Positions 6,650 to 9,050 of a stretch of DNA of 33,182 nt are shown here, piece by piece. This DNA comes from Leptolyngbyaceae cyanobacterium SM1_4_3. GTDB taxonomy: Bacteria > Cyanobacteriota > Cyanobacteriia > Elainellales > Elainellaceae. The first letter of the stretch is position 1, and each line of letters opens with the position of its first letter. The translations under genes were made by a program, and so were the position numbers. A model generated the notes under the pieces. That model had not been told where the DNA came from. It ran no database searches and worked only from the letters and a program-made list of their open reading frames with translations. The stretch is from positions 1 through 33,182 of the forward strand of contig JAAUTN010000037.1 in assembly GCA_012031415.1 (NCBI GenBank), read 5' to 3'.

Positions 6650-8524
6650 ATGGATCGCTTTACCGTCGCCGTGATTTCCCAAACCCCAAACCCGCAGCAG
6701 GTGATTTATGCCGCGATGCACCAAGACTACGCGGAGGGGTTTGTCTGTGATGAGCGCGATCGCTGGCCCGACGAAGAAAAAGCCGGAGAAATCATCGTTA
6801 AGCAGCTTCTAGCAGGCAACCGGGGACACTACGGCCCCTTAGAGCATCCGCAAATCGTCCTCAACTGCGGCTGGTTTCCCCACAGCACCATGCAGCAAAT
6901 TCGGACTCATCGCGTTGGAATTAGCTTTGATGTTCAATGTCTGGCAGGAGATACAGAAGTCACCTTTGTTCATGCTTCAGGCGCACTCAGAAGAGTAAAA
7001 ATCTCTGCGCTTCATGACCTATGGGCAAACGGAGAGCAAGCAATTCGAGAGAGACAAATTCGAGGGCGCAAGGGCGAAGCTCCGGGGAGCTACCGGAGAG
7101 ATTGCAAAGCTCGTCTTCAAAAGATGAAGCTAAGAGTTTTGAATGAAGCAACTGGAATATTTGAAATCGGTCATATTCAGTCAGTCTTTGACCAGGGTAT
7201 TCAGCCCGTTTACCGTTTGACCCTGGAAGATGGCAAAACGCTGGATTGCACTGAAAATCACCGTTTGATGACCACTGAAGGTTGGCAGACGATGAAGCAA
7301 GCATTGGCACCTGTCACCACTGCTGAAGGAGAAGTGCTTTCCCACAAACAGGATTGTCATTTGATGACTAATGGAACAATTGTGGGTGAAGGATTATATC
7401 GAGATAAAGATTGGTTGCAGACAAAGTTAGCCGATGGTCTAACTGCAAAAGAAATGGCTAAAGCAGCGGGTTGCTCAGTCGAAGCCATTAAAAAATGGGT
7501 TTACATTCACGGTCTTGAGCTAAACAGATGCAAGCCTGGAACACCAAATCCCTGGAATCGAGGACTCAAGGGAGCTTATCGACTCAACTTGAATGCTGAA
7601 CAACGGCAAGCAAGGAGAGTGCGATCGCACCAGATTACTCGTCGAGGCTCAGAGAGTAATTTTTGGAAAGGAGGGGTTACAGAAGAGCGCGTTGCCATCG
7701 GTGCCTGGACACGAACAGTTGCTCCTCAGATTCATGAGCAGTTTGATTACACCTGCCAGAAATGCGGTAAGCGTGGGGGCAGACTTCATGCCCATCATCT
7801 ACTTCCTGTTTATTCTCACCCTGAGAAAGCGTATGATCTGGCGAATCTTGTATCAGTCTGCAAACCCTGCCATCAGGACATTCACCACCAGAGTTTGGAA
7901 CTTGAATTTGCTCAACAGTTTGTTCCAATTGCATCTCTTCCTCAGAAGCCGAAGCCGAGAGGAAACAAGCTCAAAGCTCATCCTGTGAAGGTTGTTCAAG
8001 TTCGCTACTTGGGGATGCAGAGAACCTATGACCTAGAAGTTGCTGGAGATTGGCACAATTTTGTTGCGAATGGCATTGTGGTTCACAACTCCTTTCGTTA
8101 CACTGGGCAGCGGATTGTAGATGTCATTGAGGGCAAGCGGGAAGTTGAAGATGTGTTCTACTTGCGTCCGGTGGGGGCTTACAGCGATCGCCAGGGCAAG
8201 CGCTACGAATACACCCTGGAGCAGCGGCAGCAAGATTTGGACTGGTGTTTGGCAGCCTGCAAGCGCTACCAGGAGCGCATCAACCAGGGCTTTTCAGAAG
8301 AACACGCACGGGGGCTAATTCCCTTTGATGTGCGGCAGCATTGGGTCTTGTCAGCAAACGTGCGATCGCTCCTTCACCTCTTAGACCTGCGCTGGAAAGC
8401 CGACGCTCAGCTTGAGGCGCAAAAACTGTGTGAATTGATCTGGGTGCCGTTTCGGGAATGGACTCCGGCGATCGCCGACTGGTATGAAACCAATCGCCTT
8501 AAGAAAGCTCGCTTAGCGCCTTGA
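6650..8524 (+). CDS. thyX: Flavin-dependent thymidylate synthase ThyX interrupted by an intein
   Basis: ThyX makes dTMP from dUMP using methylenetetrahydrofolate, FAD and NADPH in the cytosol. The 624-residue precursor is two ThyX exteins (residues 1-96 and 481-624, together 240 aa, normal for ThyX) split by a 384-residue intein. The N-extein ends in the ThyX signature RTHRVGISFDVQ (85-96) and the C-extein restarts with SFRYTGQR. The intein therefore sits inside the RHR-X7/8-S signature, immediately before its conserved Ser, which also serves as the +1 nucleophile for splicing. Without splicing the substrate-binding motif would be cut. The rest is typical (DVFYLRPVGAYSDRQGKR, later VRSLLHLLDLRW). 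No folate or nucleotide genes adjoin it. ATG 6650 matches usual ThyX N-termini; the ribosome-binding site is weak. Confidence 0.95.
   Translation: MDRFTVAVISQTPNPQQVIYAAMHQDYAEGFVCDERDRWPDEEKAGEIIVKQLLAGNRGHYGPLEHPQIVLNCGWFPHSTMQQIRTHRVGISFDVQCLAGDTEVTFVHASGALRRVKISALHDLWANGEQAIRERQIRGRKGEAPGSYRRDCKARLQKMKLRVLNEATGIFEIGHIQSVFDQGIQPVYRLTLEDGKTLDCTENHRLMTTEGWQTMKQALAPVTTAEGEVLSHKQDCHLMTNGTIVGEGLYRDKDWLQTKLADGLTAKEMAKAAGCSVEAIKKWVYIHGLELNRCKPGTPNPWNRGLKGAYRLNLNAEQRQARRVRSHQITRRGSESNFWKGGVTEERVAIGAWTRTVAPQIHEQFDYTCQKCGKRGGRLHAHHLLPVYSHPEKAYDLANLVSVCKPCHQDIHHQSLELEFAQQFVPIASLPQKPKPRGNKLKAHPVKVVQVRYLGMQRTYDLEVAGDWHNFVANGIVVHNSFRYTGQRIVDVIEGKREVEDVFYLRPVGAYSDRQGKRYEYTLEQRQQDLDWCLAACKRYQERINQGFSEEHARGLIPFDVRQHWVLSANVRSLLHLLDLRWKADAQLEAQKLCELIWVPFREWTPAIADWYETNRLKKARLAP
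6938..8089 (+). mobile_element. ThyX intein with HNH homing endonuclease domain
   Basis: The 384-residue intein begins at Cys97 of the precursor (block A CLAGDTEVTF) and ends VVHN at residue 480, followed by Ser+1. Block B is DGKTLDCTENHRLMT (TxxH type). Blocks F/G are TYDLEVAGDWHNFVANGIVV plus HN, so penultimate His and terminal Asn are present and all splicing residues look intact. The middle carries a helix-turn-helix-like stretch (AKEMAKAAGCSVEAIKKWV), NUMOD-like segments (NPWNRGLKG, GSESNFWKGG) and an HNH nuclease with CQKCG, HAHHLLP and CKPCHQDIH. HNH rather than LAGLIDADG endonucleases are the less common intein arrangement. The intein should be able to home into intein-free thyX alleles. 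Confidence 0.93.
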
Positions 8525-8546: not shown

Positions 8547-9050
8547 CTAGCCAACTTCAACGCCTTCATGCTGCAATAGCCAGCGTTTACGTTCAAGTCC
8601 ACCTGCATAGCCCGTGAGGTTTGCTTTTGCGCCAATCACACGGTGACAGGGTACCACGATCGCCACCGGATTGAGCGAATTTGCCATGCCAACTGCCCGA
8701 TAAGCCGTGGGTTTACCTAACTTTGCAGCCAGTTCCCCATAAGTGACAGCCGTTCCAGGCGGAATCGTTCGCAACGCGGCCCAAACCTGCTGCTGAAAAG
8801 CCGTTCCACCCGCGCTAACCGGGATTTGATCGAGACTGCTGTAGTCCCCTTCCAAGTAAGCTTGAATTTTGCTGCTCACCCCTACCGGATTTATCCTTTC
8901 CTGTAGGTGAAAGTGTCCGTACCGCACCTGAAGCAGTTGGGTCATGCGGTGTTCATAATCCGCGAAGTCTAATGCACACAAATTTTCTCCATCTGAAACT
9001 AGCAAAATGATTCCTAATGGGGAATTGAGCTTGTCGATAAAGAGTTCCAT
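8547..9050 (-). CDS. ogt: Methylated-DNA--protein-cysteine methyltransferase
   Basis: A suicide DNA repair protein that moves the methyl group of O6-methylguanine (or O4-methylthymine) to its own Cys. The 167 residues show the acceptor motif VVPCHRVIGA with Cys135, the helix-turn-helix segment TAFQQQVWAALRTIPPGTAV (83-102) and YGELAAKLGKPTAYRAVGMA, including the Arg finger. The N-terminal half is short as in Ogt, with no Ada zinc domain. It follows the Ada-AlkA fusion gene on the same strand, separated by a 180-nt spacer filled by a composite hairpin repeat. Together they form an alkylation-repair pair. Confidence 0.93.
   Translation of the reverse strand: MELFIDKLNSPLGIILLVSDGENLCALDFADYEHRMTQLLQVRYGHFHLQERINPVGVSSKIQAYLEGDYSSLDQIPVSAGGTAFQQQVWAALRTIPPGTAVTYGELAAKLGKPTAYRAVGMANSLNPVAIVVPCHRVIGAKANLTGYAGGLERKRWLLQHEGVEVG

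Follow-up and report, generated by a model that had tools for sequence, protein, structure and literature searches.

The window, a stretch of 33,182 nt from Leptolyngbyaceae cyanobacterium SM1_4_3 (contig JAAUTN010000037.1), carries a thyX open reading frame at 6650-8524 on the plus strand, which encodes 624 aa with no interruption along its whole length. The two halves of the Thy1 domain (PF02511, E 2.6e-33 in Pfam) lie on both sides of an intein that occupies residues 97-480 of the ORF (Table 1), and the ThyX ends also match TIGR02170 with 146 bits in NCBIfam. The NCBIfam matches of the ORF are thyX, intein_Cterm and intein_Nterm, the last of these near threshold. The junctions read RTHRVGISFDVQ^CLAGDTEV...NGIVVHN^SFRYTGQR (carets mark junctions here and below), and the insertion point is directly 5' of the ThyX signature Ser. 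When aligned with spliced ThyX from a mycobacteriophage, Geothrix and a viral contig, the +1 Ser of the intein shares a column with the last signature Ser. A first-pass annotation had proposed an HNH-type intein with exactly these borders and had equated its +1 residue with the signature Ser; the Pfam and NCBIfam matches, the junctions and the alignment column agree with both proposals. Its description of the signature as RHR-X7/8-S holds for the Ser and the spacing (X8) and fails for the first Arg, which is replaced by Thr in the THR-X8-S of the window. After the predicted splicing, ThyX would possess a Thy1 domain and a signature of the RHR-X7/8-S type. Directly downstream of thyX, on the minus strand at 8547-9050, is a methylated-DNA methyltransferase gene (PF01035, PF02870).

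Table 1. Features of the intein-bearing thyX in the window, and inteins at a second site of the same signature in other loci
Feature	Position	Strand	Evidence or remark
thyX N-extein, 96 aa, ending RTHRVGISFDVQ	6650-6937	+	
Intein, 384 aa	6938-8089	+	PF14890, PF01844; Hint fold; 52 further in-frame inteins share the site
N-terminal splicing region, Cys1 at 6938-6940	6938-7312	+	
Block B TENH (T105-H108)	7250-7261	+	T105 and H108 unchanged in all 26 inteins aligned
Predicted HTH, helices 157-165, 170-177, 181-190	7406-7507	+	Presumed DNA-binding part of the endonuclease
HNH nuclease core, CxxC...HAHH...N...CxxCH	7754-7891	+	PF01844, residues 273-318
C-terminal splicing region, ending HNFVANGIVVHN	7973-8089	+	TIGR01443; invariant residues
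thyX C-extein	8090-8524	+	8090-8092 = Ser+1 = ThyX signature Ser
Putative co-conversion tract	8090-8104	+	6 of 19 window-specific substitutions against two congeners
Second-site inteins	L056 3001-4689 (Geothrix); L183 841-2319 (mycobacteriophage Norm); L095 718-2409 (viral)		

The intein matches Intein_splicing (PF14890) in Pfam with 42.8 bits against a cut-off of 35.8, and all of the splicing residues named in the first-pass annotation are present, namely Cys1, the block B motif T105-E-N-H108, H383-N384 and Ser+1. Across 26 aligned inteins, C1, T105, H108, H383 and N384 are invariant. The AlphaFold2 model of the intein (mean pLDDT 78.6) has a Hint fold, and the nearest solved fold to this model is the NpuDnaB intein 4o1r (Z 19.7, 1.8 A over 139 residues), with SspDnaB 1mi8 (Z 19.4) also among the closest. 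These cyanobacterial DnaB inteins differ from that of the window in that they reside in another host protein and have been solved as mini-inteins of 141-142 residues, which lack an HNH nuclease. A position-1 nucleophile, the block B TxxH, a C-terminal His-Asn followed by a nucleophilic +1 residue and the Hint fold together characterize a class 1 intein. With high confidence, we regard the window element as a mobile class 1 intein with a complete Hint splicing domain, which would be expected to splice.

In its middle part the intein matches HNH (PF01844) in Pfam with 32.1 bits against a cut-off of 21.4, and the HNH catalytic motif with its Cys-pair zinc site is intact (CxxC, HAHH...N...CxxCH). 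The HTH assignment is based on helices predicted at residues 157-190 of the intein insert in the AlphaFold2 model; the related segment of locus L008 matches HTH_23. Pfam yielded no NUMOD or HTH family match in the window intein, with NUMOD considered at E up to 1, and NUMOD4 is matched by the intein of the viral locus L095. Of the HTH/NUMOD-like segments described at first pass, the HTH therefore stands on the predicted helices and the L008 match, and the NUMOD part finds no Pfam match in this copy. An IscB identity of the HNH region was considered and dropped, as the score of about 40 of 175 bits is far under the IscB cut-off and the HNH domain is all that the two have in common. Because synonymous sites were saturated, dN/dS was not computable for most pairs and pN and pS are given in its place; pN was 0.06-0.21 and pS about 0.7-0.95, indicating strong constraint on amino-acid-changing sites in the splicing and nuclease parts alike.

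The locus was scanned for in 85,000 species genomes and the best 80 loci were kept. Among these 80 are 52 further cyanobacterial inteins in frame at the exact site, for a total of 53 with that of the window, alongside 2 frameshifted copies and 24 empty sites. The comparison with other cyanobacterial thyX alleles suggested at first pass thus returned 52 further in-frame inteins at the same position. Inteins at this site range in size from 182 to 456 aa. The HNH core is kept in 34 of 34 full-length copies (353 aa or more, window included), therefore HNH is the standard endonuclease at this ThyX site and no rarity, contrary to the earlier view that it makes this a less common intein type. All 19 shortened copies (311 aa or less) lack the HNH and keep the splicing residues, and the forms of 444-456 aa possess an additional HTH-like segment ahead of the one common with the window. 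By a count of strong matches in a sample spread over the phylum, about 20 of 386 genomes have a clear ThyX intein. A reading of the frameshifted inteins (L032/L083 and L046/L084) as split or decayed copies was dropped; they lie on MAG contigs, and their frameshifts are probably assembly errors because these contigs have low coverage (2.4 and 3.5 in their titles). Locus L045 (2977-4266, Laspinema palackyanum D2a) has a Planktothrix-like HNH-type ThyX intein whose N-terminal part and N-extein are absent from the matched frame, and it is possibly disrupted. In the literature searched, which lay mostly outside subscription journals, we found no paper on distribution or homing at this ThyX site in cyanobacteria.

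The 19 nuclease-less relatives with splicing residues show that decay is common at this site, and by the same route the window intein might by now be a passive passenger in which splicing works and the HNH nuclease is inactive. We consider this rather unlikely, since the HNH and zinc-ligand motifs of the window are intact, the domain is constrained and the arrival of the intein appears recent.

The case for a recent arrival comes from two congeners with empty sites. G021, the closest relative compared, has no intein at the site and matches the window at 96.6% identity over 5.6 kb across the gene; its assembly is a draft of 83% completeness, with a frameshift in thyX downstream of the site. The site is also empty in G022, which was used as the outgroup to assign substitutions over 722 compared thyX positions and whose right flank is the same as that of G021. 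Of 19 window-specific substitutions in these 722 positions, 6 fall in the 15 nt that adjoin the intein on its 3' side (hypergeometric P=6e-7, or P=5e-5 for junction clustering at third positions alone, for a stretch picked after the data were seen), where ATG-AGA-TAT-ACC of G021 and G022 is changed to TTT-CGT-TAC-ACT in the window. Between the window and G021, 11 of 40 differences lie within 37 nt around the site (P=1.1e-6, this stretch also being picked after the data were seen). The left flank is ambiguous, with the majority of differences there on the G021 side. This flank pattern fits a probable co-conversion of adjoining DNA during double-strand-break repair. In base composition, the intein has a GC of 47% and a GC3 of 40%, compared to about 55% and 62-63% in the exteins. 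The converted flank matched none of 76 other alleles, among which intein-bearing alleles were no closer than empty ones; a donor search by intein DNA reached a best identity of only 71%, to Fortiea, and plasmid records gave no match. Parsimony with two empty relatives places a probable gain of the intein later than the divergence from the closest sequenced congener.

The intein and its host protein also differ in their phylogenetic placement. In the intein tree, the window is placed among 384-type inteins and shortened relatives of Nostoc, Fortiea, Atlanticothrix and a few other cyanobacteria (SH-aLRT 100), and thus groups with Nostocales inteins, whereas the ThyX exteins do not group in this way and the ThyX tree places the window with Leptolyngbyaceae and kin. 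Forcing the intein group together in the ThyX tree was rejected (AU p about 1e-68). The window and L008 are 84% identical in the exteins and 60% in the intein, and the window and Fortiea (L009) are 70% and 75% identical, respectively. Two empty congener alleles, clustered flank substitutions and the tree conflict fit homing into cognate empty alleles, an activity that is predicted here. These results suggest a recent arrival of a selfish intein by homing, with a short scar of donor DNA remaining alongside it. An ancient intein, inherited vertically in the genus and precisely lost in G021 and G022 via recombination with empty alleles, would be another way to reach the same distribution: 7 of the 30 ThyX-bearing genomes of the window's family have an intein at the site, so the element could be old, and a tract would also remain if conversion with an empty allele had removed it precisely. 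However, this history requires two losses, it is the window that is the odd one while G021 and G022 share their right flank, the GC of the intein is well under that of the gene and the intein and host trees disagree, so we judge it unlikely.

Inteins at the same ThyX site were also found on two phage-like viral contigs, a full HNH intein in L093 and a shortened one in L094. Genes nearby gave PHROGs matches, some of them weak, to a DNA methyltransferase and a transcriptional repressor in L093 and to tail-fibre families in L094. These contigs are candidate rather than proven vectors of the intein. More tentatively, the ThyX signature Ser site could be an actively circulating homing locus common to cyanobacteria and phages, at which phage thyX would shuttle HNH inteins between cyanobacterial orders, and the window could be a transfer caught shortly after the event. 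If this is true, tests can address the converted flank as well as the site in its empty and occupied states.

Family searches found no thyA, second thyX or thymidine kinase in the window's own genome, which is 95.9% complete and in which thyX is single-copy; the same searches gave matches in control genomes. None of 36 genomes from the window's family combines ThyX with ThyA; ThyX is present in 30, ThyA in 3 others and neither in 3 that are 72-78% complete. Judged from the gene content of an incomplete genome in which none of these genes was found, dTMP formation very probably depends on intein splicing. This supports the first-pass annotation, which had made dTMP synthesis dependent on splicing unless a second synthase exists and had pointed to thyA elsewhere in the genome as the gene to look for. 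Family genomes without an ordinary ThyX match include G027 (L091, 381-2009), G034 and G035, which have a 542-aa ORF with two tandem ThyX domains. In G004 (L092, 385-1929), G002 and G015, family genomes without ThyX, the ThyA match lies in an ORF of about 515 aa, far longer than the 266-position family.

We infer the splicing reaction, the DNA cleavage and the gain over loss, and the proposed course is as follows. The thyX mRNA would be translated into a single 624-aa precursor. Its Hint domain would begin with an N-S acyl shift at Cys1, after which Ser+1 would attack in a transesterification, Asn384 would cyclise and a last acyl shift would follow. The intein would thereby be released and the exteins joined at Q^S, so that the ThyX signature would be whole again. 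A thyX allele that lacks the intein would presumably be cut here by the HNH nuclease with its HTH, and repair from an intein-bearing allele would copy the intein together with a few flanking bases. Regulatory inteins have been proposed in other systems, and the present one immediately precedes the signature Ser in the sole thymidylate synthase detected. Its domestication into a regulatory switch, in which redox- or stress-gated splicing at Cys1 would control dTMP supply, is nevertheless highly improbable, as patchy presence, empty close relatives and recent horizontal arrival favour a selfish element and the Trichodesmium mini-intein, the only one with splicing data among the ThyX inteins compared, splices nearly completely (~100%) in E. 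coli and is also active in trans (Lin et al. 2013, PMC3620165).

ThyX inteins are a known kind. One was described in Trichodesmium erythraeum (Liu & Yang 2004, J Bacteriol 186:6316, via PMC4649490); this Ter ThyX intein resembles that of the window in lying inside a cyanobacterial ThyX. By its title, that description also covers a group II intron in the Trichodesmium gene; the window gene has none. Those of mycobacteriophages are known as well (PMC5050341), and in cluster C1 the ThyX (TdS) inteins, such as that of phage Norm gp94, are likewise HNH-type and inside the ThyX signature. The Norm intein differs in lying before the first signature Ser (RHRSGF^SYNEESGRY), whereas that of the window lies before the last, and the two are only 32% identical over residues 251-384. 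What is new here is a natural pair of alleles with and without the intein and with a probable homing scar, as well as the extent of invasion, decay and transfer at this ThyX site. Because the alleles are matched (96.6% identity) and one bears the probable co-conversion scar, it becomes directly testable whether a bacterial HNH intein homes in an essential gene. The full-length, shortened and empty loci compared display the life cycle of an intein, from invasion through nuclease decay to absence, at one residue of one enzyme.

HNH inteins occupy a second site in the same signature, before the first Ser, in Geothrix (KHRIG^SEFNEISGRY), in phage Norm and in the viral locus L095 (RTHRIGC^SFDVQSGRY), the last of which has NUMOD4 and HNH_3 in place of PF01844. 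Five viral thyX genes (L101, L102, L107, L108, L111) possess a different in-frame insert, roughly 330 aa long, at GHYG^C...GN^C(L/T)EHP, which starts with CYS(S/A)DTEVLT and has a GFFxGDG stretch that is LAGLIDADG-like by eye only. The Pfam intein model did not match this insertion in the two copies scanned; it is probably a third ThyX intein site. In Virus Rctr197k (L184, 1348-3147), a ThyX-like protein annotated merely as a putative HNH endonuclease has an HNH intein after MTHRAF.
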